Source: Acidobacteria bacterium 28-1
GTDB lineage: Bacteria; Acidobacteriota; Blastocatellia; Pyrinomonadales; Pyrinomonadaceae
DNA: 64,000 nucleotides
Direction: 5' to 3'
NCBI GenBank assembly: GCA_002050365.1
Contig: MWYZ01000088.1
Coordinates: 1 to 64,000 of the forward strand
Shown: positions 1,713 through 62,377 of the stretch, in pieces
How the letters are laid out: every line of letters begins with the position of its first letter
How positions within the stretch are numbered: the first letter of the stretch is position 1
Notes under the pieces: model-generated
The model's database searches: none
Seen by the model: the letters and a program-made list of their open reading frames with translations, nothing else
What the model was told of the DNA's origin: nothing
Translations under genes and position numbers: made by a program

Positions 1713-2774
1713 TTAAGGGACATCAATTCCTAAATCTTTTCCTGAAAAGGTAAATGTCGGACGCTTGCGTCCTTTCATAAATTTGGCGGCGGTTTGCGAT
1801 AAAGCCGTTACAATCATCGGCAAGCCGATTGACGGGTCGCTTGGCACGTAAGCAGTTGTCGCAGATTTCAGAAGTTTTCCAAAAGTTTGCGTATGGATTC
1901 CGCCGAATGACGGCGTTCTGATGTCGAGCGGTACGGAATCGGTGGTAATCGAAACGGCATATTTATGTCCGCGCGGCGTGGTGCGCGTGATATACGAGGA
2001 AAGTTCCGCCATATTCACCATGTTTTGACTGCACACGCTGCCCAATGTGATGATGCCGGAATTGCGCGTCTTTTGTGAAATCATCATCATTTCCATCGTG
2101 TCCTGCGTAATATCGAAATTAAATTGATTTTTCTTTTCAAACCGGCTGCGGGCAATACCGACTGAAAGCGGACTTGCTAATATATCGGGACAATAGACGG
2201 GAATGCGGGATTTATAAGCTGCCGTCAAAATGCCGTCTTCGTGGGCGATTTCCGCCAGTTCGCGCCCCAAAAGATGGAGAAATTCACGCACCGAATAAGA
2301 GCGCGAAAGTTCGAGTTGATTGATAACGCTGCCGACCCATTCGTCAGCTTCGTGATATTCATCAATATTGGCAAGCAAATCGCCGATACGCGCGACATCG
2401 GACGCTTCGAGTTCGTCATCAGACATTGAAGGATGCGCTTGATAATGATTGCGTCCAAGGATTTCGTGTATGTCGTGAAACAAAACCGTGCCGCCCATCA
2501 CAATCACATCAACAAAGCGGTTTTTGATAACATACGCCAGCAGCCGACGCATTCCCGACGGAATCAGATTTCCCGAACCGCACAGATAAATTGTCGAATT
2601 GTCGTCCAACATATCGAGCCAGATGCGATGCGCTTCCGCCAGTTGTTTCGCGCCGAAGCCCGCGCCTTCCATTTTCTCCAAAAGCCCCGCCACCGAACGG
2701 TCTCGGTCAACCGGAATCGGTCGAGTCGGGACGGTTAAAAATTTTGAAGCCTTTGATTTCTTTTGAGCCACCAT
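1713..2774 (-). CDS. Deoxyhypusine synthase-like protein (probable polyamine enzyme)
   Basis: This 353-aa protein belongs to the deoxyhypusine synthase family. It shows the NAD-binding fold (STIYLCGSGNLIPSG, VDVIVMGGTVLFHDIHE) and a C-terminal segment TFGKLLKSA that aligns with the WGK lysine region of eukaryotic DHS, the residue that carries the butylimine intermediate. Bacteria lack eIF5A, and bacterial relatives are thought to transfer the aminobutyl group to putrescine (homospermidine synthase-like activity) or related amines. Lying between speA and speB, it would consume the putrescine they make. That product assignment is inferred from context. The stop immediately precedes a 26-bp inverted repeat. 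Confidence 0.85.
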   Translation of the reverse strand: MVAQKKSKASKFLTVPTRPIPVDRDRSVAGLLEKMEGAGFGAKQLAEAHRIWLDMLDDNSTIYLCGSGNLIPSGMRRLLAYVIKNRFVDVIVMGGTVLFHDIHEILGRNHYQAHPSMSDDELEASDVARIGDLLANIDEYHEADEWVGSVINQLELSRSYSVREFLHLLGRELAEIAHEDGILTAAYKSRIPVYCPDILASPLSVGIARSRFEKKNQFNFDITQDTMEMMMISQKTRNSGIITLGSVCSQNMVNMAELSSYITRTTPRGHKYAVSITTDSVPLDIRTPSFGGIHTQTFGKLLKSATTAYVPSDPSIGLPMIVTALSQTAAKFMKGRKRPTFTFSGKDLGIDVP

Positions 2775-2806
2775 AAGTTTTCCTTTTATAAATTTATTTT
2801 AATTGG

Positions 2807-2870
2807 GAATTACGAATTTCAAATTACGGATTGGTTTTATTCGTAATTCGTAACTTGAAATTCGTAATTC
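2807..2870. repeat. ATTCGTA-type heptameric inverted repeat
   Basis: GAATTACGAATTTCAA at 2807-2822 returns inverted at 2855-2870, and the arms extend further with a few mismatches. The arms are built from ATTCGTA units of seven bases. The repeat lies between speA and the DHS-like gene and touches the speA stop codon. Confidence 0.85.
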
Positions 2871-4813
2871 TATTTCTCGTTGCCGTTCGGCGATAGATAT
2901 GTATAACCGTCAGCCTGTACTTCGTAATATTCGATTAACTTATTACCTTCTTTCGATGAAACTTCGCCGCTTTTAACTCTCTGCATTACAATCCGCCGAA
3001 ATTGGTCTTTTAATTGTGCAGAGTCGAAGCGGACGGCTGAAAGTGCATCGCCGAGCGTTGCGCCCTGAATAACTTTCTTGATTATGTAACCGTCTTCGCC
3101 GATGTGAATGTGCGCTTCGTGCGGTACGCCGAAAAGATTGTGATTGTTGCCCATCACTTCCTGATACGCGCCGACGAGCATCATCGCCAAATAATACGGC
3201 TCATCTTTTATTAATTTATGTAATTCCAAGACAGGTTTGACATCGTGCAAATCAACGAATTTATCAACAATTCCATCCGAATCGCAAGTAATATCGCACA
3301 GTGTAGCATATTCCGTCGGCTTTTTGTTGAGCCGATGAATTGGAACGATTGGAAAAAGTTGTTCCAACGCCCAATTGTCCGGCATCGAGCGAAAGACCGA
3401 AAAGTTCGCCAAATATTTCGCACATAACAGTTGCCGAAGGTCGTTAAATTCTTCCGCGACATATTTTTTTTGCTGTGCAAATTCGTCGGCGCGTTCGCAA
3501 ATGTCCCAGAAAAGAACCTCGCCTTTGCCTCGCGCTTCAAGGGAAATCAAACCGAGATTGAACATCGTGAATAATTCTTCGCGGTTCTCCAATGCATCGT
3601 GGTAGTATTCGCGGTAATTTTTGCCCGTGATGTTGCTCCGTAAATCGTGAAGCTCGCGGACAACCGGCGGGTCATCCGCCGTAATGGTCAGCGGCGTTAG
3701 ATCTTCAACGACAGTTTCAATTTCGTCTTGAATATTCGTAACTAAAATTGCGTGATACGCCGACAGGTAACGCCCCGATTCTTGAATAATCGTTGGGTGC
3801 GGAACATCTTCGTCATCGCAGACGGTTTTGATAACGTAAATCACATCGTTGGCAAATTCCTGCGCGTTGTAGTTTGCCGACGATTCAAATGAAGTACGCG
3901 AGCCGTCGTAGTCAACCGCCATTCCGCCGCCGACATCGAGAAAATCAACCGGGATATTCAATTGTCGGATTTTCGCATACGTCCGCGCCGCTTCTCTCAT
4001 CGCGCTTTTAATTCGCTTGATGTCGGTCAATTGCGAACCGATGTGAAAGTGAAGCAGTTTGAGCATTTCAGTTCGCCCGGCTTCGTTCAAGCGGCGAATG
4101 ACTTCTAAAATCTCCGTCGTCGTCAAGCCGAATTTCGCCGCTTCACCGCCGGATTTCTCCCATTTTCCAGAACCTTTTGAATAAAGTTTGACGCGCACGC
4201 CAATCATCGGTAGTTTTGTTTCTGGATTTTCAAAAGTCATCTCATCGGCAATTTTTATTGTGTGTTCAAGCTCGCTTAATTTTTCAATAACAATGACGAC
4301 ATTTTTGCCGGCTTGTGCGCCGGCAAACGCCAGCCGTATAAATTCGCGGTCTTTGAATCCATTTAATACCAGAAGGCTTTCGTCAGATTGTTCCATCGCC
4401 AAAGCCGCATAAAGCTCGGCTTTCGAGCCGGCTTCTAAACCGAAATTATAACGCCTGCCTTCTCTCAGATATTCTTCGATGACCGCGCGGTTTTGATTGA
4501 CTTTCATTGGATAGACGCACATATGTCCGCCGCCGTAATCAAATTCTTTAATGGAATTTTTGAAGGATTTCTGAAGTTTTCGGATTTGTCCCGCAAGGAG
4601 CTGCGGAAAGCGCAGCAGAACGGGCGTATTTACGCCGCGCGTTTTTAAATCGTCAATAATTTCTTTAACATCAGCCGAAAGCGTGTCGTTTTCTGCGGCA
4701 CGGACAATCAAATTTCCTTTGCGATTAACACCGAAATAACCCGCGCCCCAATTTTCAATACCGTATGTTTCAATCGTCTGCTCGATAACTGCGCTCAAAT
4801 GCCTGTTCTCCAA
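2870..4813 (-). CDS. speA: Biosynthetic arginine decarboxylase
   Basis: Catalyses PLP-dependent decarboxylation of arginine to agmatine, the first step of the agmatine route to putrescine. At 647 residues it has the normal SpeA length. The PLP lysine is K104 in VYPMKVNQN (consensus YPIKVNQ). The barrel glycine-rich loops (FLDVGGGMAVDYDG, IIQESGRYLSAYHA) and the C-terminal beta domain are present. It is the first gene of the minus-strand set speA, DHS-like, speB. About 95 bp with a heptameric inverted repeat separate it from the next gene. The upstream 480 bp are non-coding, so the promoter should lie there. Confidence 0.95.
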   Translation of the reverse strand: MENRHLSAVIEQTIETYGIENWGAGYFGVNRKGNLIVRAAENDTLSADVKEIIDDLKTRGVNTPVLLRFPQLLAGQIRKLQKSFKNSIKEFDYGGGHMCVYPMKVNQNRAVIEEYLREGRRYNFGLEAGSKAELYAALAMEQSDESLLVLNGFKDREFIRLAFAGAQAGKNVVIVIEKLSELEHTIKIADEMTFENPETKLPMIGVRVKLYSKGSGKWEKSGGEAAKFGLTTTEILEVIRRLNEAGRTEMLKLLHFHIGSQLTDIKRIKSAMREAARTYAKIRQLNIPVDFLDVGGGMAVDYDGSRTSFESSANYNAQEFANDVIYVIKTVCDDEDVPHPTIIQESGRYLSAYHAILVTNIQDEIETVVEDLTPLTITADDPPVVRELHDLRSNITGKNYREYYHDALENREELFTMFNLGLISLEARGKGEVLFWDICERADEFAQQKKYVAEEFNDLRQLLCAKYLANFSVFRSMPDNWALEQLFPIVPIHRLNKKPTEYATLCDITCDSDGIVDKFVDLHDVKPVLELHKLIKDEPYYLAMMLVGAYQEVMGNNHNLFGVPHEAHIHIGEDGYIIKKVIQGATLGDALSAVRFDSAQLKDQFRRIVMQRVKSGEVSSKEGNKLIEYYEVQADGYTYLSPNGNEK

Positions 4814-5292
4814 AAATTTAAGTAGTCTGAACAGTATAACTCAAAAATCGCGTAAAAATTTAAAAGTTAAAATAAAATTAACAAAAAATGAAATTAATTT
4901 TTCAAAACATCTGGCTTACAATCGCAAAAATTCAAAACAGTTAATTGCCAATGATTTATCTATTGGCGACGAAACTCATAAAACAAAGCAAAGAAATAAA
5001 AACTTATCCGCGGGTTAAAGACAAAAAGTCGAAAACAACCGCCGCGAGATGGTTTTCAGCCGCGATGATTAATCGCGCACGTTCAGGAACTTTACGCCGA
5101 ATGGTCGAGCATTCCGCTTTATTCGACTGAGGCGGATGGCGCAGAAATTTCACAAACCGCCAATTATTTGAGGATTTTATCAAGGCAGCCGCCCAAACCG
5201 ATAGCTTTGACGAATTAATAAACAAAAATTGTGAATGATTATTATAAATTTTTATCTTTCGCTCGAACCTAAATTGTGATTAAATTTTCTTT
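4814..5292. other. Intergenic region with a degenerate coding remnant
   Basis: This stretch between divergent speA and nfi is AT-rich near both genes and should hold both promoters. From about 5080 to 5240 on the plus strand two short frames look like decayed protein: HVQELYAEWSSIPLYSTE, then, after a one-base shift, FEDFIKAAAQTDSFDELIN ending in TGA at about 5238. I cannot name a family, and no intact start is visible. Confidence 0.35.
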
Positions 5293-5967
5293 ATGAAAAT
5301 CGCGCCGCTTCACGATTGGAATCTCACGCCGCCACAGGCGATTCAGCTTCAAAAACAATTAGCTCACGAAGTCGTCGCCGAAGACCGTTTCGACGCGCCC
5401 GTTAAAACCGTTGCCGGCATTGATTTAGGCTACGATGCGAAAAATGATACGAGCCGCGCCGTGGTGGTCGTCTTAAGTTTTCCCGAACTCGAACTCATCG
5501 AAACGAGCGAAGCGATTTTGCCGATTCAATTTCCATACGTTCCCGGACTGCTTTCTTTCCGCGAAACTCCGGTCGCCATCAAAGCACTGGAAAAATTAAC
5601 CGTCGCGCCCGATTTAATTCTCTGGGACGGACAAGGTTTAGCGCACCCGCGCCGATTCGGCATCGCCTGCCACATCGGTTTAATCGTTGATGTGCCGACC
5701 GTCGGCGTAGCAAAATCTTTATTAGTCGGAAAGTTTGAAAATCTCGATGAGGCTCGCGGAAGCACCGCGCCCCTCGTTCATCGAAGCGAACAAGTCGGCG
5801 TTGCATTGCGAACCAAAGACAAGGTTCAGCCGATTTTCGTTTCAATCGGTCATCGAATTAGCTTAGAAACAGCAACTGATTTTGTTTTGCAGTGTGCGCC
5901 GAAATATCGTCTGCCGGAAACGACGCGGCTTGCCGATAAATTGGCTTCGTATCGAAAAAAATTATGA
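5293..5967 (+). CDS. nfi: Endonuclease V (deoxyinosine 3' endonuclease)
   Basis: Cleaves DNA near deoxyinosine and other deaminated bases, starting alternative excision repair. The 224-aa protein has the family's metal-binding set: D44 in GIDLGY, E91 in PYVPGLLSFRE, and D112 with H118 in WDGQGLAHPRRFG. The loop around PYVPGLL is the mismatch-recognition wedge in known structures. The stop overlaps the start of the next gene (ATGA), so both are probably translated together. Length is typical. Confidence 0.95.
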   Translation: MKIAPLHDWNLTPPQAIQLQKQLAHEVVAEDRFDAPVKTVAGIDLGYDAKNDTSRAVVVVLSFPELELIETSEAILPIQFPYVPGLLSFRETPVAIKALEKLTVAPDLILWDGQGLAHPRRFGIACHIGLIVDVPTVGVAKSLLVGKFENLDEARGSTAPLVHRSEQVGVALRTKDKVQPIFVSIGHRISLETATDFVLQCAPKYRLPETTRLADKLASYRKKL

Positions 5968-20202: not shown

Positions 20203-20877
20203 ATGAGCAAAAACGAACAAGCGGCGGCGTTTTACGATTTGGAAGGCACACTCGTCAGCACAAATCTGGTGCATACGCTCGGATTCTACGCCAGGCGGCA
20301 GCAAGGGCTTCTTCAAACAATCAAAAAAAGCGCGCAGACATTAGCGAAACTGCCATTTTTCGCCGCGACTGATTTGTATTCGCGTAATGTTTTTAACGAA
20401 ATCTTTTTCAAATCCTACGCGGGTGAATCCGAAGACCGCCTGCGGTTTTTCGCCGACGAACTTTTTGAAGACGTTCTCAAGCCGGCAATTTTCGACGGAA
20501 CGTTTGAACTGATTGAAACGTCGAAAAAACTCGGTCTGCGGCAAGTTATCATCACCGGCGCACTAGATTTTACGGTTGCGCCTTTAATAAAGCATTTTGG
20601 AATTGACGATTTTGCGGCGAACCGCCTGGAATTCGTCAATGGTTACGCGACGGGAAGACTGCTTCCGCCCGTGATGGCTGCGGCGACGAAAGCAAAATGG
20701 ATACGCGAATTTGCCGAACGCGAAAATTTGAGTTTGTCGGATTCTTACGCTTATTCCGACAGCATTTCAGATTTGCCGATGCTCTCAATTGTCGGACATC
20801 CGGCGGCGGTCAATCCAGATTTTCGTCTCAAACAAACTGCGTTGCAGCACGATTGGGCGATTTTGAATTTGAAGTAA
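20203..20877 (+). CDS. HAD-IB family phosphatase (ElbB-like position)
   Basis: A 224-aa haloacid-dehalogenase subfamily IB hydrolase, the group of phosphoserine phosphatase. Motif I is FYDLEGTLVSTN with nucleophile D12, but the second acidic residue is Glu14 where most HADs have Asp. Motif II is VIITGAL, and motif III/IV is YAYSDSISDLPML. Family members with DLEGT are common beside acyltransferase systems. Here the gene heads the group HAD-IB, LarA-like, FAR/ligase/ACP/PlsC, SDR, now split by insertions. A likely job is dephosphorylation of a lipid phosphate intermediate (inference). Confidence 0.8.
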   Translation: MSKNEQAAAFYDLEGTLVSTNLVHTLGFYARRQQGLLQTIKKSAQTLAKLPFFAATDLYSRNVFNEIFFKSYAGESEDRLRFFADELFEDVLKPAIFDGTFELIETSKKLGLRQVIITGALDFTVAPLIKHFGIDDFAANRLEFVNGYATGRLLPPVMAAATKAKWIREFAERENLSLSDSYAYSDSISDLPMLSIVGHPAAVNPDFRLKQTALQHDWAILNLK

Positions 20878-20896: not shown

Positions 20897-21319
20897 ATGG
20901 ACGTGATTAAATTCACATTAATATTGATAGTAATAGTTCTTCTGATTGCCTTTAGTTTGACCGGAATTAATAACCGAATAATGAGGTTGGTTAAAGATAG
21001 GCAATTAAGAAAGGCTCGAAATGATTATTTTAATTTACTCGAAAAGTTAAAACTATTTCCAGACAGCACAAATCTTGAACAGCAAACAATTGAGGTAGGT
21101 AGAACTTAATCCAATCTCACAAAAGTAATAAAAGGTGTTACGGTTTATGATGAAGCAGTTTTAATGAATGATATAAATGCAGCAAAAGTTTCATCAAGGG
21201 GAGTAAATATTCAAACTGCTGAAGAACGTCTTGCAAAACTTTCTGAATTGAAAGACAAAAATTTAATCAGCGAAGAAGAATACGAAAAACGAAGACAGAA
21301 AATTTTAGACGAAATTTAA
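20897..21319 (+). pseudogene. Small membrane protein with SHOCT end, in-frame TAA
   Basis: One frame of 140 codons runs 20897-21319. It starts with an N-terminal membrane helix (TLILIVIVLLIAFSLTG), continues with charged helices (RLVKDRQLRKARNDYFNLLE) and ends with a SHOCT motif (AEERLAKLSELKDKNLISEEEYEKRR, cited as residues 106-131). A TAA at 21107-21109 interrupts it between VGRT and SNLTKV. The residue lost is probably tyrosine (one base change). The first 70 residues may be expressed as a short membrane peptide. It lies downstream of the HAD gene and upstream of the accessory block. Confidence 0.7.
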
Positions 21320-21337
21320 GAAAAATTTATTTAGTTT

Positions 21338-21427
21338 ATGGCTTTGCAGTTACGCAGAGAAACGCACGAATCAATCATCTACATTGACCGCGACAGCGCA
21401 CCGCGCATTATACCGTTGGATGCTTGA
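21338..21427 (+). pseudogene. Partial duplicate of the 5' end of the LarA-like gene
   Basis: ATG plus 26 codons read MALQLRRETHESIIYIDRDS and then APRIIP, matching the start of the gene at 24255 with four base differences in about 80. Identity stops abruptly at ATACCGTT (21417), after which the frame closes at TGA. The intact copy lies 2,917 bp downstream. The pair brackets an accessory block of toxin-antitoxin, protease and nuclease genes, as if a segment inserted near the 5' end of the gene and rebuilt it. Confidence 0.9.
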
Positions 21428-21521
21428 ATAAAATTTAAGCGATATAGAAATTGAATTGAGATTTAGATATAATGGCTACGTAGCTAAGTTGTTGCCAAGA
21501 TAAATTTTGCGAGGTGAAAAA

Positions 21522-21770
21522 ATGTCGCACACAGTAAAAGAAGCAAAAAATAATTTGAGCGGATTGATTCGCCTTGCGGAAAAGGGTGAGCCGCAGGTAA
21601 TTCGTCGGCACGACACGGAAGTTGCCGTCGTCGTTTCAATTGCCGATTGGCGGAAAATAAACGGCAAAAAAGAAAGTCTGGTCGAGTTTCTGCAAAAAAG
21701 TCCGCTCGACGAAATAATTCCTTTCCTTAACCGAGCGGAAGATTTGCCGCGCGAGGTGTCGTTTGAATGA
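21522..21770 (+). CDS. Phd/YefM-type antitoxin
   Basis: An 82-aa antitoxin. The N-terminal DNA-binding fold HTVKEAKNNLSGLIRLAEKGEPQVIRRHDTEVAVVVS matches the Phd/YefM pattern (EAK..L..LI..A..GE...I.R....VAVLV). The C-terminal half would wrap around the toxin. GAGGTG precedes the ATG at 21522. Its last four bases overlap the start of the PIN-domain toxin gene (ATGA). Such pairs regulate themselves through the antitoxin, which would bind upstream of 21522. Confidence 0.85.
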   Translation: MSHTVKEAKNNLSGLIRLAEKGEPQVIRRHDTEVAVVVSIADWRKINGKKESLVEFLQKSPLDEIIPFLNRAEDLPREVSFE

Positions 21771-22186
21771 ATTTTCTGCTCGATACCTGCGCGATTTCCG
21801 AACCGAAACAAAAAAGACCGAGCGCAAAAGTTCTCGAATGGCTCGACGCGCAAGATGAATCGAAACTTTATTTGAGCGTTTTGTCGCTTGGCGAAATCAG
21901 GAAAGAAATCATAAGACTTGAATCAAGCAGAAAGAGAGCCGAACTCGAAAAATGGCTGGAACAATTACGAATGCGTTTTTCCCGACGCATTTTGCCGTTG
22001 TCCGAAAAGACGTTTTTGGTTTGGGGGAAAATGTATGGCGAATTTGAACGAAAAGGCATCGTGCGTCCGGCGTTCGATTCGCTTCTGGAAGCGACGGCTT
22101 TGGAACACGATATGATTTTCGTCACGCAAAACGTCAAAAACTTTCACGATTCGCAGATTACAATTTTGAATCCATGGGCTGATTGA
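21767..22186 (+). CDS. PIN-domain ribonuclease toxin (VapC family)
   Basis: A 139-aa PIN-domain toxin, expected to be a metal-dependent RNase. The acidic residues of the PIN site are visible in FLLDTCAISE (D6), VLSLGEIRKE (E43) and RPAFDSLLEATALEHD (D104 and following). The domain ends with FVTQNVKNF and LNPW, typical of the family. It is translationally coupled to the Phd-type antitoxin. The final codons run into a sequence duplicated from the downstream protease gene (22176-22226), so the very C-terminus may be a junction artefact of a past rearrangement. Confidence 0.85.
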   Translation: MNFLLDTCAISEPKQKRPSAKVLEWLDAQDESKLYLSVLSLGEIRKEIIRLESSRKRAELEKWLEQLRMRFSRRILPLSEKTFLVWGKMYGEFERKGIVRPAFDSLLEATALEHDMIFVTQNVKNFHDSQITILNPWAD

Positions 22187-22226
22187 TTACGAAGGCGAAC
22201 TTTTGTTGAGCGAATATGCTGAATAG
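22176..22226 (+). repeat. Remnant copy of a protease gene 3' end
   Basis: In the frame starting at GGG 22176 this reads GLIDYEGELLLSEYAE and stop. It copies the last codons of the retropepsin-like gene (GLIDYEGKLLLSAYGE, 22932-22982) at about 80% base identity. The two copies are direct repeats that bracket the DUF5678 plus protease pair. This suggests that an earlier protease copy was deleted, or that a pair was duplicated. Confidence 0.8.
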
Positions 22227-22237
22227 GAGAAATTTAT

Positions 22238-22591
22238 ATGCAGGCAAATTTAGAACAAGTTACAACTTTAATTCGCGCTTTGCCGCTCGAAGATTTAGGT
22301 AAATTGCGTGAAGTAATTGATGAAGAACAAGCTAAACGCGAAAAGAAAGAAAAATCTAATTGGCATATTGAAAGATACAAAAAGGCTCGGAAATGGCTTG
22401 ACGAACACGGCGAAGAATATATGAATAAATGGGTTTGTCTGGAAGGAGATAAACTCATCGTGGTTGACGACGACGGACGAACAGTTTATCAAAAAGCCAA
22501 AGAAGCGGGCATTGAAACGCCGTTTATTCATCACATCGTCGAGGAGCCAAAGTTCTTTTTCGGAGGCGGTTATGAACTCATACGCGATTGA
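22238..22591 (+). CDS. DUF5678 domain protein
   Basis: A 117-aa protein. The N-terminal helices ALPLEDLGKLREVIDEEQAKREKK are followed by a compact domain (about residues 50-112: WLDEHGEEYMNKWVCLEGDKLIVVDDDG, YQKAKEAGIETPFIHHIVEE). This fits DUF5678, a small domain often encoded just before a retropepsin-like protease, as here. It overlaps the protease start by 20 bp, so translation is coupled. Function is unknown; it may guide or regulate the protease. Confidence 0.7.
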   Translation: MQANLEQVTTLIRALPLEDLGKLREVIDEEQAKREKKEKSNWHIERYKKARKWLDEHGEEYMNKWVCLEGDKLIVVDDDGRTVYQKAKEAGIETPFIHHIVEEPKFFFGGGYELIRD

Positions 22592-22982
22592 GTTTTCGAC
22601 ACTTCACGAATACGACACGCTCAAAACTGGAATTACACTTCCTGTTACGCTCGGATACAATTCGCTGACCATTGATTTTGAGGCAAAACTCGATACGGGT
22701 TCTAGCCATTGCATTTTTGAGCGCAGATTCGGCGAAAATCTCGGTCTTGAAATCGAAAACGGAACACTTGAAAAATTCGGAACAGCGACCGCCGGATTTT
22801 TCGCCTACGGACACGAAATTGTTTTGACCGTATTGGAAATTGAAACCGTTGCGACCGTCTATTTCGCCAAAGAAGAATCGTTCACGCGCAATGTTCTCGG
22901 CAGACAAGGCTGGCTCGAACGCGTGAAACTTGGGCTGATTGATTACGAAGGCAAACTTCTTTTGAGTGCTTATGGTGAGTAA
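22572..22982 (+). CDS. Retropepsin-like aspartic protease (clan AA)
   Basis: A 136-aa protein with one aspartic-protease half: the catalytic DTGSS (FEAKLDTGSSHCIFERRFG) near residue 40, and the second hydrophobic-hydrophobic-G element in NVLGRQGWLERVKLGLIDYEG. Single-domain members act as homodimers. The ATG at 22572 lies inside the DUF5678 gene, a coupling seen in many bacterial pairs of this type. Substrate is unknown. A degraded copy of its 3' end sits upstream at 22176-22226. Confidence 0.8.
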   Translation: MNSYAIEFSTLHEYDTLKTGITLPVTLGYNSLTIDFEAKLDTGSSHCIFERRFGENLGLEIENGTLEKFGTATAGFFAYGHEIVLTVLEIETVATVYFAKEESFTRNVLGRQGWLERVKLGLIDYEGKLLLSAYGE

Positions 22983-23032
22983 TTAAAGTTTACAGTGTTT
23001 GAGATAAAAAAACTATATAAATTGAGGTTATT

Positions 23033-23608
23033 ATGTTTGTCATCATCATTGTTGCGATAATAGCATTCCTTTTATTTACGGTTGTTGCAAATTGCACTTT
23101 TTGGGTCGTTAGCTATTGGATTTCTTCACTTTGTGCCGCATTTGCTAACAAAGATAAGAAATTAGTTCAAGGTCTTTCACAAACAACAATTTTGTTAGTG
23201 GTAACAATATTCTTATTCATTTATTCCTACAAAGGATGCACTTATGTAGATAGATTTGGTGGCAACAGCGACAATATGCCCGTTATAGGTGGTTGGTTTT
23301 TATTGCTGACTGGATTAATAAGTATCTGCGTCACATTCGTTGTTTTTGTTTTTGCTTTTGACGATCCTGAAAAACAAAAAGCATTGGAGGAAGAAAAATT
23401 TGCTAAACAGCAAGAAGAAAACTCTAAAGCTGAAGCAGAAATAATGGCTCTTTTCCAAGAAAAGTCTAAAATGTTTTTTGTAAGTCCAGAATATAAATTT
23501 GTAGAACAATTTGCAAAAAATATGGGAACAGAGGAAACAAAAATGAGTTCTCAAAACTTCATATGCTACTTAAAACTCGGCAATGGGATTTTTCCTCAAC
23601 TGAATTAG
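23033..23608 (+). CDS. Membrane half of a frameshifted Mrr-type nuclease
   Basis: A 191-aa product with three hydrophobic helices (about residues 2-35, 48-66, 85-112) and then a charged coiled-coil (EKQKALEEEKFAKQQEENSKAEAEI). After EQFAKNMG the sequence becomes atypical and stops. Shifting -1 at the A run 23515-23520 gives AKKYGNRGNKNEFSKLHMLLKTRQWDF, which leads straight into the downstream nuclease frame. The two frames are therefore probably one gene of about 400 residues, broken by loss of one A or joined by frameshifting. The DNA is AT-rich compared with the neighbouring core genes. Confidence 0.65.
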   Translation: MFVIIIVAIIAFLLFTVVANCTFWVVSYWISSLCAAFANKDKKLVQGLSQTTILLVVTIFLFIYSYKGCTYVDRFGGNSDNMPVIGGWFLLLTGLISICVTFVVFVFAFDDPEKQKALEEEKFAKQQEENSKAEAEIMALFQEKSKMFFVSPEYKFVEQFAKNMGTEETKMSSQNFICYLKLGNGIFPQLN

Positions 23609-24243
23609 AAACTTTATTAACCTTTGAAAACAAAATACAACATAAAGAAAATATAAAAACTAAAATTTTAGCAACTAAACCGCAGTATTTACGAGAATAT
23701 ATAAAAGGTTTTTTGCAAATATCAGGAAGCAATGATGAGAATCTAACGGCTTTATTAGAACTCTTACAAGAAAGAAATTTATATAATTACGATTTGCGCG
23801 ACCTGAGATTTGCCGTAAAAGAAATTGAGAACCAAATTGAGTTGGAAAATTTTGAGAAACGGCTTAATGAAGGAAATGAACAGATTTTTTTTGAAAACAT
23901 AGACCAGCTAAATGGTTATGAATTTGAAGATTTTCTAAAAACACTTTTTTCTAAAATGGGTTATCAAGTTGAGCAAACTAGATTGTCCGGCGACCAAGGC
24001 GCGGATTTAGTTATTGTTAAGTTCGGCGAGAAAACAGTTATACAAGCAAAGCGTTTCGGCGGGAAAGTTGGAAATAAAGCCGTGCAGGAAATTATGGCGG
24101 CAATAAGTCTTTACGAAGCGCAAAAGGGAATGGTAATAACGAATAATTATTTCACGCCTGCCGCAGTTAAACTTGCGAATGCAAATAATATTGAATTAGT
24201 TGACAGAGACGCTTTGGAAGAATTGATTAACAAACATTGGTAA
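23563..24243 (+). CDS. Mrr-type restriction endonuclease domain (second half)
   Basis: A 226-aa frame. Residues 1-100 are helical, and residues 120-220 match the Mrr catalytic (PD-(D/E)xK) domain: GYEFEDFLKTLFSKMGYQVEQT, the metal-site aspartate in DQGADLVIVKFG, the QxK pair in VIQAKRFGGKVG, then AVQEIMAAISLYEAQKGMVITN. Mrr-type nucleases cut DNA, often modified DNA. The upstream membrane segment suggests a membrane-anchored nuclease as in some defence systems. The separate ATG at 23563 may not be the real start, since the frame is open further upstream and continues the 23033 gene. Confidence 0.75.
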   Translation: MLLKTRQWDFSSTELETLLTFENKIQHKENIKTKILATKPQYLREYIKGFLQISGSNDENLTALLELLQERNLYNYDLRDLRFAVKEIENQIELENFEKRLNEGNEQIFFENIDQLNGYEFEDFLKTLFSKMGYQVEQTRLSGDQGADLVIVKFGEKTVIQAKRFGGKVGNKAVQEIMAAISLYEAQKGMVITNNYFTPAAVKLANANNIELVDRDALEELINKHW

Positions 24244-24254
24244 CAAAATAAAAT

Positions 24255-25856
24255 ATGGCTTTGCAATTACGCAGAAAAACACACGAATCAATCATCTACA
24301 TTGACCGCGACAGCGCGCCGCGCATTATACCGTTTGGCGAGGATTTTATTCTCGAAGATTTGCCGATTGGGACGCGCGTGATTTATCCGAATCCGCCGAT
24401 TAAAGGCTTGCCGAATCGGGAAGCGGCGATTCGTTACGCAGTTAATCATCCGATTGACGCGAAACCGCTTTATGCACAGCTCGAACCGGGAATGCGCGTG
24501 ACGATTGCGATTGACGATATTTCGATGCCGCTGCCGCCGATGGCAACGCCCGACGTGCGCCAGACGATGCTCGAAGTCATTCTGGAACAGTGCGCGGCAA
24601 ACGGCGTGGACGACATTCATTTGATAATCGCTATCTCGCTTCACCGACGGATGACGGCGTGGGAAATGGAGCGAATGGTTGGAAGCAAGATTTTTAACGA
24701 ATTTTACCCGGACAGATATTACAACCACGACGCGGAAGACGACGAAAATCTTGTAACTATCGGACAGACGCGGCACGACGAACCGCTTCGTATCAACAAA
24801 CGCGCCATCGAAAGCGATTTGCTGATTTACGCCAACATCAATTTTGTGCCAATGAACGGCGGACACAAATCGGTTGCCGTCGGACTGTGCGATTACGAAT
24901 CTCTGCGGGCGCATCACGAACCGCAGACAATCCGCGATTCGGATTCGTATATGGACCCGCCAGCGTCGGAACTCACTCACAAAATTGATCGCCTTGGAAA
25001 ATTGGTTGACGAACACTGCAACGTCTTTCATATAGAAACCGCGCTCAACAGTCGAATGTTCAGCGACGGCTACGACATTCTGACGCGCAACGAAGACGAG
25101 TTTTCGTTTATGGACAGGATGAAATGGGAAGCGATGAAACGCACTTTCGGCAATCTGCCGCGCGGCGCACGTCGAAAACTTCTGCACCAAATTCCCGCGC
25201 AATATGAATTGATTGCCTGTTACGCTGGCGCAACCGAACCTGTCCACGAAAAGATTCTGGAAAAGAATTACCAGCAGTTTGAGATTCCCGTCAAGGGTCA
25301 GTGCGATATTTTAATAACGGGCATTCCCGACATTTCGCCTTATAACGTCTATTCATCGCTCAATCCTCTTCTTGTCCAGGTGATGGCTCTCGGCTATCAC
25401 TTCAATATGTATCGCAACAAACCGCTCGTTCGGAAAGGCGGCGTGATGATTGTTTCTCATCCGTGTTTCGACGAGTTTGACCATAATCAACACGCGCCCT
25501 ATATCGAATTTTTCCATCGCCTGCTTTCAGAATCACGGGACGCTTTTTATCTGCGCGAAAAATACGAGCGCGAGTTTGCCACGAATCCGAACTATATCGA
25601 AATGTATCGGCGCGGCAACGCTTATCACGGAGCGCACCCGTTTTTTATGTGGTATTGGGGCGAAAACGGTCGCCAGCACGTCGGCAAGGTCATCGTCGCC
25701 GGCGCGGAAAACGCTCACGTCCCCGAAATGCTCGGCTGGGAACGCGCCGATAATATGACCGAAGCGATTGCCCAGGCGCGCTCCTTTATGGGCAGAAACG
25801 CCGAGATTACGATGCTGCATCAGCCGATTATCGGGCTTTGTAATGTGAGCGATTAA
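24255..25856 (+). CDS. LarA-like / DUF2088 protein (lactate-racemase fold)
   Basis: A 533-aa protein with the LarA N-terminal domain: IAIDDISMPLPP (cf. DITRP), LIIAISLHRRMTAWEMERMVG (the catalytic-type histidine) and YYNHDAED (second histidine). NGGHKSVAVGL stands where LarA has the GGGK-type loop. It is about 100 residues longer than LarA. LarA uses a nickel-pincer cofactor; whether this protein does is unknown. It has a nearby HAD-IB gene, and downstream a fatty-acyl reductase/ligase protein, so a role in lipid-linked chemistry is inferred. Its first 80 bp are duplicated at 21338. Confidence 0.8.
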   Translation: MALQLRRKTHESIIYIDRDSAPRIIPFGEDFILEDLPIGTRVIYPNPPIKGLPNREAAIRYAVNHPIDAKPLYAQLEPGMRVTIAIDDISMPLPPMATPDVRQTMLEVILEQCAANGVDDIHLIIAISLHRRMTAWEMERMVGSKIFNEFYPDRYYNHDAEDDENLVTIGQTRHDEPLRINKRAIESDLLIYANINFVPMNGGHKSVAVGLCDYESLRAHHEPQTIRDSDSYMDPPASELTHKIDRLGKLVDEHCNVFHIETALNSRMFSDGYDILTRNEDEFSFMDRMKWEAMKRTFGNLPRGARRKLLHQIPAQYELIACYAGATEPVHEKILEKNYQQFEIPVKGQCDILITGIPDISPYNVYSSLNPLLVQVMALGYHFNMYRNKPLVRKGGVMIVSHPCFDEFDHNQHAPYIEFFHRLLSESRDAFYLREKYEREFATNPNYIEMYRRGNAYHGAHPFFMWYWGENGRQHVGKVIVAGAENAHVPEMLGWERADNMTEAIAQARSFMGRNAEITMLHQPIIGLCNVSD

Positions 25857-26534: not shown

Positions 26535-29500
26535 ATGAAATTATCACCAACCGAAATTTTTAAAGGTAAAAAGATTTTCTTTATCGGCGGCACGGGCTTT
26601 GTCGGCAAAGTTACGCTTTCAATGCTGCTGAATAATTTTCCCGATGTCGGACAAGTTTACGCGACGGTTCGCGCCAGAGACGCGAAGGAATCGGAGATTC
26701 GTTTTTGGACGAGCATTGTTACGAGTCCGACGTTTGACCCGTTGCGCGAGAAATATGGCGACGGGTTTGAAGATTTTATTCGCTTAAAGGTCGTTCCCGT
26801 CAATGGCGATGTCGGCAATGAATTTCTTGGCTTAGAGGAAAAAGAAGCCAAAAAGATAATGAAGGATTGCGACCTTATCATAAATTCGGCGGGCAATGTG
26901 ACGTTTAATCCGCCGCTTGAAAGCGCGCTCAGAACGAATGTCGTTGGGACGAACAATGTTATAAATTTGGCGCGGATGATGAAGCGCCCCGCGCTGGTTC
27001 ACGTTTCGACTTGTTTTGTGGCGGGGAAAAAAAGCGGCACGATTTGGGAGAATGAGCCGGTGGTCGGTTATTTTCCGAGAAAGGAAGAATTAGTTGGAAC
27101 GACTTTTGACGTTGATCAAGAAATCGCCGATTGCGCCCGGCTCTCCGAGCAAGCCCGTGAAGAAGCGAAAGACGCGATGCAGATTTCGAAATTCCGCGAA
27201 ACCGCCCGCGAACGACTGGTAGAAGAAGGACGCGATGCCGACGATGAAGCCGCTTTAAGCTTGGCGATGCTGCGCGAAAAGAAAGTCTGGATTCGGGAAC
27301 GCACGACGGAACTCGGTTCGGAACGCGCCGATTATTGGGGTTGGACGAACATTTACACTTATTCAAAATCTTTGGCGGAACAGATTATCGCTAAGCAAAA
27401 CGACATTATTAAAATTCTTGTGCGTCCGAGCGTCGTCGAATCTTCGGTAAATTACCCGTTTCCCGGTTGGAACGAAGGTTTTACGACGACTGCGCCGCTG
27501 ATACTTATCGCGCTTCGCGGTCAGCCGATTATTCCGACTAATGAAAATCTGATTCTCGATGTGATTCCGGTTGATTTGGTGGCGGGCGCGATGCTTTCCG
27601 CCGCAATGAACGCCTTGGTTGACGACAAACCGCCGCTTGTTTTTCAAGCGTGTTCGGGCGATTCAAATCCCAGTAATATGAAGCGCATCATCGGGCTGGT
27701 CAGTTTGTATAAACGGCAACATTTTCAGGAGAAGGAAACGGGCAACAAATTGGTTAACCGCGTGGCGGCGATGATTGAAGCCACGCCGGTTTCGCAGCGA
27801 ACTTATGAATTAACGTCCGCGCCGATGCTCAATAATTTGGCGAAAACAGCAACGAAATGGCTCGACAAAACTAGTCCGAAGTGGGGCGGCGGGCGCATCG
27901 CCAATATCGTAGACGACGTGAAAAAATCGGTGGAAAATTTCGAGCGCACGACCGAAGAAACCAAGGAAGCGTTTGATCTTTTCAAACCGTTTATGATTGA
28001 CAACGAATATCTCTATCGCGCCGACAACACACGCGCTTTGCATTCGTTAATCAAAAAATCCGAGCAGGATTTGCTCCCGTGGTATCCGGAACAAATTGAT
28101 TGGTATGATTATTGGCTTAACGTGCATTTTCCGGGTTTGCGAAAATGGGTTTTGCCGCAGCTCGAAGAAGATTTAAAGATTCAGGAACGCCGCGCGCACA
28201 CTTACAAGGATTTAATTGATTTGTTCGACACCGCGACAAAACGGTTTCCGACGCGCGTGGCGATGCGAATCGAACGAGGCGGAAAAAAAGAGCAATACAC
28301 TTTTGAAGATACGCGGGAACTTGCCCTTCGTGCCGCCGGGTTTTTTGCAGATAATAATATAAAACCGCAAGACCGCGTAGTTTTGTTTTCCAACAATATG
28401 CCGGAGTGGGGTTTAACTTATTACGGCATTTTAAAGACAGGCGCAGCCGCGATTCCGATTGACCCGGCGAGTTCGATTGATGAAATCATCAATTTTGTCC
28501 GAGCCGGCGAGGCTTCGGCGATTGTTTTAAGCCGCAAACTTTTCGACGAAAATTCCGCCTTAAACGACGAATTAAAAAGGGCGAAAATAGAAATTCCGTT
28601 GTGGACGTTTGAAGATGTTTTCGAGATGAAGAGCGAGGCGGAAGAGGCGAACCGAATCGCGCTTCTGCCCGAAAAGATTCTGGCAAATTCAGTTGCTTCT
28701 TTAATTTTTACATCAGGCACGACCGGCACACCGAAAGCCGTGATGCTTTCGCACAAAAATTTTACGAGTATGGTTTCGATGCTCTCGTCGGTTTTGGAAA
28801 TGGACATCACCGACGGCGTTTTGTCGGTTTTGCCGATGCACCATACTTTTGAATTTTCCGCCGGGTTTTTAACGCCGTTCGCTAACGGAACGCAGATTAC
28901 ATATTTGGACGAATTATCGAGCGAAGAACTCTCCCGCGCCATCGAAAACAACCACGTTACGGGAATGGTCGGCGTTCCCGCGCTTTGGGAAATGCTTCAT
29001 CGCCGCATCAAATCGCGCTTCCGCGAGCGCGGCGATTGGTTCGCGGATTTGGCGGATAACATTATCGAGTTTAACGCTTGGCTTAGGGACAACACGCCGT
29101 TCAACTTTGGTCCGATTGCCTTTTTCCCGATTCATCAAGGAATGGGCGGGCGAATGCGCTATTTAATTTCCGGCGGTTCGGCGTTGTCGGAAAAAGTGCA
29201 GAAAGATTTGCACGGACTTGGTTTTACCGTTCTTGAAGGTTACGGTTTGACCGAATCTTCGCCGGTTCTGACAGTCGCACGTCCGGGTAATAAATTGTTA
29301 CGCGGAAGCGTCGGCAAACCGCTGCCGGGCGTAGAAGTAAAAATCAACGAGCCGGACGAAAAAGGCATCGGCGAAGTTTTCGCTCGCGGGCAAAATGTGA
29401 TGGTCGGGTATTTTAACAACGAGGAAGCAACCGAAGCCGTTCTGCACGACCGTTGGCTGAAAACGGGCGATTTGGGGCGCATTGACGAAGACGGAAATCT

Positions 29501-30953
29501 GTTCATCGTCGGACGCTCGAAAGATGTCATTATTGATTCTAACGGCAAAAACATTTACCCGGATGAAATCGAAGATTTGTATGGGACATCGCCTCTGATT
29601 AAGGAATTGAGCGTCGTCGGTTTGCCGGACGCAGACGGCGGCGAAAAAATTGCAACGCTCGTCGTGCCGGATTACGAACACGATATTTCGCTGGCTCGCG
29701 GCGAAGTCAACAAAAAAGTCGAAGAACATTTTCGGCAAATTTCCGCGTCCTTGCCTTTCTTCAAACGAGTAAAAGTTCTGCATCTCACGCCGTTTGAATT
29801 ACCGCGCACGGCGACGCGCAAAGTTAAGCGTCCCGAAGTCATCGAGATGATTCAAACGCTTGAACAAAAATCGAAAGACAAAACGAAAGTCGTCGCCGAA
29901 ACGAAGGGCGATGATACAGCTGGGTGGATTCGCCGAATCGTCGCGGCGGTTTCCAACCGCGCTTTGTCGGAAATCGCTCTCGAAGATAAATTGGTTGATT
30001 TGGGTTTCGATTCTTTGATGTTCGTCGAACTCCAAGCGGCAGTCGAAGACGCGGGCGGAAAAATCATCTCGCCCGACACTTTGAATGAAGTCGAAACCAT
30101 CCGCGAACTTTTGACGGCGGTTCAGCGCGTTGATAAACGTAAGCGAATCGAAGAGCCAAAGGCGGAAGAAAAAAACGAAGAAGACGAATTTTTCGTGCCG
30201 TCAATCGTCCGCCAAGTCGGAAATCGCATCGTTGATTATGCCCAAGAAACGCTTTACGAAAATGTTTTGAACACAAAAATCGAAGGCGAATCAAATGTGC
30301 CGCAGCATACGAATTTTATCGTCGCCTCAAACCACACTTCGCACTTAGATATGGGCTTGGTCAAAAAAGCATTAGGCAAAGACGTGGCGGAACAAACCGT
30401 CGCGGTCGCGGCGGCTGATTACTGGTTCGACACGAAATACAAACGCGCCTATATGAACAATTTCACGACGCTCATCCCAATCGAGCGCACGGGCAGTCTG
30501 CGCCAATCGCTGCGCCACGTAACCGAAATTTTGAACGAAGGCTACAACACTTTGATTTTCCCCGAAGGCGGGCGGCAAACGTCGGGCGAAATCGCCGAAT
30601 TCAAACCGATAATCGGTTATCTGGCATTGAACAATCGCGTCGGCGTTCTGCCCGTCTATGTCTGGGGAACTTACGAAGCGTTTCCGAAAGGAATGACGAT
30701 TCCGAAAACCACGAGCGTCGGCGCAAAAGTCGGCGCAAAAGTCGGGCGATTTTTGGAATACGACGAATTGTTGGAGATGACCAAAGGCGTTCCAAACACC
30801 GAAGCCTATCGCCTTATCGCCGCCCGCGTCCAACATGAAATCGAAAATATGCGTGACGGCAAACGCGATAAATTCGATGTCGCGGCGGTTCGCAAGCGAT
30901 GGCGAGCCGAACGGAGAAAGACGCGCAAGCAAGAGCCGATTATTGATGAGTAA
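26535..30953 (+). CDS. ElbD-like multidomain enzyme: acyl reductase, AMP ligase, ACP, PlsC
   Basis: A 1472-aa fusion. Residues 1-430 are a fatty-acyl reductase (FAR) SDR domain: GGTGFVGK at about 13-20 binds NADPH, and YSKSLAEQ near 275 supplies Tyr and Lys. About 565-1110 is an acyl-activating AMP ligase: FTSGTTGTPKAVMLSHKN near 720, YGLTESSP near 904, TGDLG and KNIYPDEIE near 1000. About 1125-1195 is a carrier domain with GFDSLMF (Ser near 1158). About 1240-1440 is a PlsC acyltransferase: NHTSHLD near 1265 (HX4D) and FPEGGR near 1341. As I recall, Myxococcus xanthus ElbD, needed for ether lipids, has this set. The enzyme could activate a fatty acid, load it on ACP, reduce it to alcohol and acylate or alkylate a glycerol backbone. 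The order of use is inferred. Confidence 0.88.
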   Translation: MKLSPTEIFKGKKIFFIGGTGFVGKVTLSMLLNNFPDVGQVYATVRARDAKESEIRFWTSIVTSPTFDPLREKYGDGFEDFIRLKVVPVNGDVGNEFLGLEEKEAKKIMKDCDLIINSAGNVTFNPPLESALRTNVVGTNNVINLARMMKRPALVHVSTCFVAGKKSGTIWENEPVVGYFPRKEELVGTTFDVDQEIADCARLSEQAREEAKDAMQISKFRETARERLVEEGRDADDEAALSLAMLREKKVWIRERTTELGSERADYWGWTNIYTYSKSLAEQIIAKQNDIIKILVRPSVVESSVNYPFPGWNEGFTTTAPLILIALRGQPIIPTNENLILDVIPVDLVAGAMLSAAMNALVDDKPPLVFQACSGDSNPSNMKRIIGLVSLYKRQHFQEKETGNKLVNRVAAMIEATPVSQRTYELTSAPMLNNLAKTATKWLDKTSPKWGGGRIANIVDDVKKSVENFERTTEETKEAFDLFKPFMIDNEYLYRADNTRALHSLIKKSEQDLLPWYPEQIDWYDYWLNVHFPGLRKWVLPQLEEDLKIQERRAHTYKDLIDLFDTATKRFPTRVAMRIERGGKKEQYTFEDTRELALRAAGFFADNNIKPQDRVVLFSNNMPEWGLTYYGILKTGAAAIPIDPASSIDEIINFVRAGEASAIVLSRKLFDENSALNDELKRAKIEIPLWTFEDVFEMKSEAEEANRIALLPEKILANSVASLIFTSGTTGTPKAVMLSHKNFTSMVSMLSSVLEMDITDGVLSVLPMHHTFEFSAGFLTPFANGTQITYLDELSSEELSRAIENNHVTGMVGVPALWEMLHRRIKSRFRERGDWFADLADNIIEFNAWLRDNTPFNFGPIAFFPIHQGMGGRMRYLISGGSALSEKVQKDLHGLGFTVLEGYGLTESSPVLTVARPGNKLLRGSVGKPLPGVEVKINEPDEKGIGEVFARGQNVMVGYFNNEEATEAVLHDRWLKTGDLGRIDEDGNLFIVGRSKDVIIDSNGKNIYPDEIEDLYGTSPLIKELSVVGLPDADGGEKIATLVVPDYEHDISLARGEVNKKVEEHFRQISASLPFFKRVKVLHLTPFELPRTATRKVKRPEVIEMIQTLEQKSKDKTKVVAETKGDDTAGWIRRIVAAVSNRALSEIALEDKLVDLGFDSLMFVELQAAVEDAGGKIISPDTLNEVETIRELLTAVQRVDKRKRIEEPKAEEKNEEDEFFVPSIVRQVGNRIVDYAQETLYENVLNTKIEGESNVPQHTNFIVASNHTSHLDMGLVKKALGKDVAEQTVAVAAADYWFDTKYKRAYMNNFTTLIPIERTGSLRQSLRHVTEILNEGYNTLIFPEGGRQTSGEIAEFKPIIGYLALNNRVGVLPVYVWGTYEAFPKGMTIPKTTSVGAKVGAKVGRFLEYDELLEMTKGVPNTEAYRLIAARVQHEIENMRDGKRDKFDVAAVRKRWRAERRKTRKQEPIIDE

Positions 30954-62100: not shown

Positions 62101-62377
62101 AGTTAACGAAGGTCGCCCGAACATCGTTGACTTAATCAAACAAGGCGAAACCTCGCTGATTATCAACACGCCGCTCGGCAAAACTTCGCACTACGACGAA
62201 CAAGCGATTCGCAAAGCTGCGTTGCAATTCAACGTGCCGTGCGTGACGACCATCACCGGCGCGGAAGCGTTGATTGAAGCGATTGCGACGAAAAAATCGC
62301 AGGCGAGAGTTACGGTGAGAAGTTTGCAGGAAATTCACAAAAGCGGAAAATCATTAATTGTAAATAGTCAGCGGTAA
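59144..62377 (+). CDS. carB: Carbamoyl-phosphate synthase large subunit
   Basis: Makes carbamoyl phosphate for pyrimidine and arginine synthesis together with CarA (not in the window). The 1077-aa protein has the two ATP-grasp halves: [17 protein letters not shown] starts the first; [17 protein letters not shown] starts the second; metal sites include [18 protein letters not shown] and [18 protein letters not shown]. The C-terminal MGS-like allosteric domain begins at about residue 935 (GKTSHYDE is near the end). The length is normal. The promoter should lie between 59031 and 59143. Confidence 0.97.

Follow-up and report, generated by a model that had tools for sequence, protein, structure and literature searches.

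The locus described here raises the question of how the beginning of an intact gene came to stand twice on the same strand, with a set of accessory genes between the two copies, and whether these genes arrived together as one unit. In the window, a 64,000-nt stretch of DNA from Acidobacteria bacterium 28-1, the first 80 nt of a larA-like gene (R2, 24255-24334) recur at 21338-21417 (R1) with four mismatches (95% identity). The initial annotation had drawn attention to this pair and to its sharp end, and both are borne out: the two copies align with a score of 140, whereas 100 shuffles reached at most 27 (blastn E ~1e-31), and the identity sets in at the ATG and breaks off sharply behind larA nt 80, beyond which the sequence is unrelated to larA. 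A repeat search reports 81 nt (21337-21417 versus 24254-24334), the extra base, just before the ATG, being a chance T. The sequences upstream of R1 and of the intact larA were also compared, with no similarity found. Below, W denotes the genome of the window and C39 its contig, while L and G numbers denote loci and genomes of relatives (L055 belongs to G002, the sister species, and L111 to G008). The features of the locus are as follows.

20203-20877 (+): HAD hydrolase, conserved left core gene, which adjoins larA in most relatives (Pfam HAD, 1e-31)
20897-21109 (+): orf20897, an ORF forming the left part of spacer haplotype A
21164-21319 (+): SHOCT-domain ORF, end of spacer haplotype A (Pfam SHOCT, 3e-8)
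21338-21417 (+): R1, 80-nt tip scar, copy of larA nt 1-80
21473-21486 (+): TGGCTACGTAGCTA, palindrome-like putative operator upstream of phd, a motif conserved in relatives
21522-21770 (+): Phd/YefM antitoxin (Pfam PhdYeFM_antitox, 4.7e-13)
21767-22186 (+): PIN-domain toxin, VapC (Pfam PIN, 1.2e-9)
22175-22225 (+): second tip scar, retropepsin 3' end including the stop codon, 84% identical to 22931-22981
22238-22591 (+): DUF5678 protein (Pfam, 1.3e-5)
22572-22982 (+): retropepsin-like aspartyl protease (Asp_protease_2, E 9e-4, a weak match below the Pfam cut-off)
23033-23608 (+): orf23033, membrane protein, private to W
23563-24243 (+): mrr, Mrr-type nuclease (Mrr_cat, 5.8e-33)
24255-25856 (+): larA-like gene, intact, its first 80 nt being R2 (Lar_N, 4e-37)
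26535-30953 (+): acyl/AMP-binding reductase-like gene (AMP gene), the right core gene, which is conserved and whose 5' tip is copied in relatives
62240-62377 (+): carB 3' tip, with four further copies downstream at 67467, 68523, 69473 and 72569 of C39

The gene contents given by the initial annotation thus hold by Pfam for the Phd/VapC pair, DUF5678 and Mrr, the retropepsin-like protease being the weak one. R1 is in frame and soon reaches a stop codon; relative to larA it carries three synonymous and one nonsynonymous codon differences, and four differences are too few to tell an allele from a duplicate. Clustering of the mismatches in the first 27 nt had suggested a foreign 5' tip on larA, an idea that was dropped, as codons 2-6 vary naturally among species.

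Comparison with relatives tells which of the bracketed genes are newcomers. In most Pyrinomonadaceae outside the clade of W, only short gaps separate HAD, larA and the acyl/AMP gene, whereas in the clade of W both gaps of this cluster are filled with accessory genes that vary from species to species. The phd-vapC pair with its operator occupies the HAD-larA spacer of about 12 relatives, among them the sister species (L055/G002), where the order is HAD, phd-vapC, DUF5678, retropepsin and larA, and R1 is lacking. The operator motif TGGCTACGTAGC is conserved upstream of phd in L111, L055, L081, L083, L062, L060 and L059, and with changes in L073 and G034. Adjacency, overlapping frames and a conserved operator are the layout of a type II toxin-antitoxin system, and we infer that phd-vapC is such a module, its predicted toxicity and neutralisation resting on the domains. 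The DUF5678-retropepsin unit also recurs in relatives, in tandem in L111 and G020, and both it and phd-vapC look like old residents of the spacer. The part of the spacer private to W at this locus is orf23033-mrr: mrr is absent from the loci of relatives, and a donor search gave a best relative of 58%, located elsewhere in G030. The genes between the copies accordingly are not one integrated cassette, because phd-vapC occupies the spacer in relatives without the scar. The small cassette delimited by the two copies, which the initial annotation had considered possible, is contradicted by the same observation, while its own proviso, that relatives might show the intervening genes as ancestral neighbours, proved largely true for phd-vapC and DUF5678-retropepsin and untrue for orf23033-mrr. 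Two further features, absent from the initial annotation, matter for interpretation, namely that the SHOCT ORF and orf20897 lie outside the short copy and that a second tip scar lies inside the block; the latter is also present in L055, with a related copy in L111. A homologue of orf20897 was sought at the loci of relatives and none was found.

The origin of R1 is indicated by G020, a member of a related genus, in which a SHOCT ORF is followed by larA. Positions 21245-21419 of the window, which take in R1 and the last part of the SHOCT ORF, run colinear with this SHOCT-larA junction at 77.7% identity, the match spanning 78 nt before larA and 81 nt into it. Hence R1 represents the beginning of a larA gene that once followed the SHOCT spacer, and the present spacer is two alternative haplotypes placed end to end: haplotype A, comprising orf20897, SHOCT and a larA tip, and haplotype B, comprising phd-vapC-DUF5678-retropepsin, the private orf23033-mrr and the intact larA. 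The 5' end of larA is the site of a recombination event marked by R1, larA itself being intact, and R1 is most likely a leftover tip of larA, a recombination scar rather than an attachment site. The R1-phd junction is found at the identical position in L111, where the genes outside R1 differ, and the R1 of L111 is closer to the larA of W than to the larA of L111 itself. Between W and L055, larA is 92.3% identical in DNA over exactly -4 to 1600, but identity drops to 77-80% in HAD, the spacer and the AMP gene; larA has a dS of 0.37, and its neighbours have values of 1.10 and 1.13. A larA slower than the genes beside it is seen in other pairs as well, though to a lesser extent than between W and L055. 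This pattern of divergence points to an exchange of larA between lineages. The sharp ends of the 92.3% block are consistent with homologous exchange, not necessarily in the same event as the formation of R1.

The scar at larA of W has many counterparts. We searched the spacers of relatives for pieces of the neighbouring genes (E<1e-6), leaving out L096, whose matches are broken HAD and AMP genes. The partial copies of larA comprise six 5' tips upstream (W, L062, two in L079, L110 and L111) and four 3' tips downstream (L055, L062, L068 and L083), all on the same strand, and internal larA pieces were absent from the scanned spacers. The AMP gene has left five 5' tips upstream (L064, L069, L081, L087 and L089), and the M28 peptidase one 3' and one 5' tip, in L065 and L092. 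The larA 5' scars terminate at nt 44, 80, 80, 82, 90 and 94, end points that leave room for a short crossover core at about nt 28-44. Ahead of the 3' scar, L062 and L068 agree in sequence. Frameshifts or stop codons are present in several scars, which are thus old.

Tips of this kind are not confined to one cluster. A survey of 0.94 Mb of W, 0.8 Mb of G059 and, as an isolate control, 0.4 Mb of Pyrinomonas, with gene names read off the translations and not taken from a database result, revealed scars flanking dnaG, mtnP, xerC, ubiB, carB and an 844-1074-aa gene in W, and an IMP-like gene, an sbcC-like gene, lpdA and larA (twice) in G059. When the fragment copies were classified by hand, with repeat families and paralogues left out, 21 of 29 were tips and 19 of these 21 lay on the expected side (p ~2e-15 for the excess of tips, on an assumed background of 10%, and 1e-4 for the side). 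The 400 kb of the isolate yielded one intergenic match of 29 bp. Tip scars of the expected type number 0 in 562 kb of outgroup MAG loci versus 11 in 511 kb of clade loci, a count whose filter the outgroup larA scar of L110 escapes; all clade genomes are MAGs. The cargo beside housekeeping genes includes PIN, UPF0175-DUF3368, HicB-like, PemK/MazF-like, HNH and Uma2 proteins, and at the scars of these soil bacteria it often consists of toxin-antitoxin or nuclease genes. An empty site is available for the IMP-like gene, which has a single uninterrupted tip in G061 and G085: positions 263318-266238 of G059 correspond to 1-2925 of G061 and 267786-270500 to 2706-5423, i.e. 220 bp are present twice in G059 with a 1.5 kb insert between them. 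Likewise, the dnaG scar of W together with its outer flank matches the start of dnaG and its flank in G002, and in G007 the next gene follows xerC after about 65 bp. The two tips at larA look like alleles of one gene, and scars of the same sort exist beside many others; this speaks against recombination between paralogues, the other origin that the initial annotation had envisaged for the repeat.

Whether a tip is a copy of the adjacent gene or an allele of it can be read from codon positions. If a scar were a decaying copy of its target, some 46% of differences (a rough neutral expectation) should fall on third positions. Mismatches between scars and gene tips are distributed 55/43/150 over positions 1/2/3, i.e. 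150 of 248 (60%) at the third (p 3e-6), and the 26 pairs comprise 123 synonymous and 84 nonsynonymous codons. The IMP pair is the clearest case, with 27 of 31 differences at the third position and 26 synonymous to three nonsynonymous changes; the ratio is 8 to 0 in the sbcC-like pair, 5 to 0 in L062 and 8 to 1 in L079. Pairs of the 1074-aa gene, L068 and lpdA show no third-position excess, and these tips have probably decayed. Since the differences are mainly synonymous, the sequences favour the view that many tip pairs are alleles that diverged as working genes in separate lineages and were joined later, and this allelic character is better explained by recombination with a diverged homologue than by target duplication.

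We consider it likely that R1 arose by recombination with diverged homologous DNA of a related species, one end being joined by homology and the other illegitimately. The incoming DNA would have carried an alternative spacer and part of a conserved neighbour gene; the homologous join would lie within the core gene and the illegitimate one inside larA, about 80 nt from the start, leaving a short tip of one larA allele and the other allele whole. It may have entered by natural uptake or by another route. The ComEC family is present in W, though as a common gene it is no proof of uptake. The scars are perhaps short because longer shared stretches recombine cleanly, or because repeats are lost again (RecA). 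In the laboratory, illegitimate joining usually deletes recipient DNA. The bias to duplications of 45-100 nt needs an added reason and counts against this explanation, as does the R1-phd junction common to W and L111, which needs either one horizontally spread event or coincidence. The greater likeness of the R1 of L111 to the larA of W was likewise counted against it. A donor with the exact arriving fragment was sought and none was found. Non-homologous end joining with staggered breaks was rejected as the joining step: Ku was sought in the W genome (~91% complete) and not found, and such joining would not respect start codons.

Other explanations share part of this evidence. Toxin-antitoxin and nuclease modules might move actively by a recombinase-free swapping of tips, carrying 45-100 nt of a housekeeping gene, restoring the gene, pushing the old tip outward and being kept because a cell that lost them would die or be left with a broken gene; we regard this as unlikely. 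Insertion with target duplication, in which the repeats would be the copied target around an insert, accords with the abundance of toxin-antitoxin and nuclease genes in the cargo, with repeats of 45-100 bp and with the single-tip empty site of the IMP example. Yet such copies would begin 100% identical and then decay neutrally, whereas the differences seen are mainly synonymous; the copies start at the gene start or stop at the stop codon rather than anywhere; and phd-vapC sits in this spacer in relatives devoid of the scar, all of which makes target duplication improbable here. The ends of genes, 5' and 3' alike, are known targets of integrases, and integrase-encoded islands reside at prfC or tRNA genes. 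Site-specific integration at a gene end with a replacement tip, through an integrase that was later lost or that acts in trans, would fit both this and the geometry observed (mainly synonymous tip differences beside an intact gene), and the initial annotation had suggested integration into the 5' end of a gene that is then rebuilt. What stands of this is a recombination event at the 5' end of an intact larA; an island made by an integrase is unsupported. As the same annotation had noted, no integrase is seen locally: searches for an integrase in the block and for a tyrosine recombinase on C39 gave no match, and none was recognised in the ORFs of the inserts that border larA and the AMP gene. 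Moreover, the targets are many unrelated genes, the larA scar end points vary (44-94 nt), and one insert beside a scar is merely 142 bp long and without an ORF, so that we find integration of this kind more improbable still.

Two remaining explanations deserve very little credence. A tandem duplication that took in the spacer and the larA 5' end, after which the two spacers diverged, would accord with the DUF5678-retropepsin units that stand in tandem in L111 and G020; it is highly improbable in view of the unrelated sequences upstream of R1 and larA despite 95% identity over 80 nt. The least credible is an assembly chimera uniting alleles of different strains of a metagenome. It would agree with the clade genomes all being MAGs and with the lack of scars in the isolate control, but W and L111 are independent assemblies with one junction in common, L062 and L068 likewise agree before their 3' scar, the pattern is nearly absent from outgroup MAGs, and the frameshifts and stop codons mark several scars as old.

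The preferred reading, recombination with diverged homologous DNA, resembles homology-facilitated illegitimate recombination, described in Acinetobacter, Pseudomonas stutzeri, Streptococcus pneumoniae and E. coli conjugation (PMC3240628, PMC2884548), in having a homologous end in a shared gene and an illegitimate other end, and in the gain of foreign DNA without an integrase. Two of its features are found here, a junction without long homology (larA nt 80) and copies from different lineages, the latter judged over the set of scars, the scar of the window by itself being too small to tell. It differs in that the laboratory cases are single events, whereas here 5' and 3' tip scars occur genome-wide, with duplication instead of deletion, and the illegitimate step is deduced from sequence. 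A sequential displacement has been proposed for T6SS effector-immunity modules of Vibrio cholerae (PMC5361080); there, as in the displacement of Rhs tips, a conserved anchor gene is retained while old tips and cargo are pushed outward, and the carB series is similar. Unlike in those systems, the anchors here are ordinary housekeeping genes, the cargo lies outside the anchor gene and the displaced pieces are tips of 45-100 nt. Insertion with long target duplication, reported for restriction-modification genes in Helicobacter (Nobusato 2000, cited in PMC1643837 and PMC3154945), likewise places addiction-type modules between direct repeats of a host gene without a recombinase; in contrast, only gene tips are repeated here, and their mainly synonymous differences give them the look of two alleles rather than of a copied target. 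It is the nearest descriptive precedent, with the geometry in common and the allelic character not. Rapid accessory turnover between two conserved genes is shared with the hotspots of HGT anchored by flanking core genes that are mapped in PMC5635113.

Little has been documented of how bacteria in nature gain single genes or toxin-antitoxin pairs when neither an integrase nor a transposon is involved. Short gene tips beside cargo can be counted as marks of such events, with polarity given by the side on which the tip lies and the codon positions distinguishing an allele from a copy. If confirmed with isolates, the scars would allow natural illegitimate insertion to be quantified over entire genomes and would account for the differing small genes that the conserved HAD-larA-AMP cluster holds in nearly every species. 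We make no firm claim for a strict age order of scars: identity in the carB series falls with distance (92, 86 and 83%), but the fourth copy has 88%, over 51 bp only, and the order in L079 is opposite. Among minor matches, a separate search detected a weaker extra larA 3' tip of 29 bp, a larA piece in G072 is a possible addition to the list, and L064 contains a match to nt 2127-2180 of the AMP gene of L068.

The 3' tip of carB (window 62240-62377; carB, like the other housekeeping genes named here, is identified from its translation) recurs in four further copies downstream on C39, the contig that holds the window, with an ORF of 1664 aa, an HNH nuclease pair and a Uma2 nuclease among the genes that separate the copies.

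Copies of the carB 3' tip on C39
67467-67540, copy 1, 92% to carB
68523-68607, copy 2, 86% to carB
69473-69570, copy 3, 83% to carB
72569-72619, copy 4, 88% to carB over 51 bp

A copy of a 3' end is also present within the window, where 22175-22225 repeats the end of the retropepsin gene (itself a weak match) and overlaps the end of vapC, whose stop codon falls inside TGGGCTGATTGA, common to both retropepsin 3'-end copies. The same arrangement is found at the larA locus of the sister species, and a related one in a relative (L111).

Elsewhere in the genome, a xerC-like gene and the copy of its 3' tip flank a UPF0175-DUF3368 pair (L256:4338-5275, contig C42), at a site that is nearly empty in a relative's genome (G007), and a PemK/MazF-like toxin adjoins a ubiB-like 3' tip copy (L248:9727-11767). 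As for 5' tips, dnaG and a 45-bp copy of its tip enclose three small genes, one with a PIN domain and one that probably encodes an antitoxin (L201:2128-3288, contig C72), and a HicB-like antitoxin adjoins an mtnP tip copy (L215:13832-14751). In the outgroup locus L110, the insert behind the larA tip copy (-988..-1 relative to larA) encodes a fatty-acid-desaturase-like protein and no toxin-antitoxin module; the cargo thus extends beyond addiction genes.

Other repeats were also observed. An imperfect repeat of about 65 bp (L256:5972-6040) is dispersed at 10 or more places in the genome and occurs in other members of the genus, and contig C109 carries at 12.4-17.8 kb (L211) several copies of a direct-repeat family, about 100 bp each.
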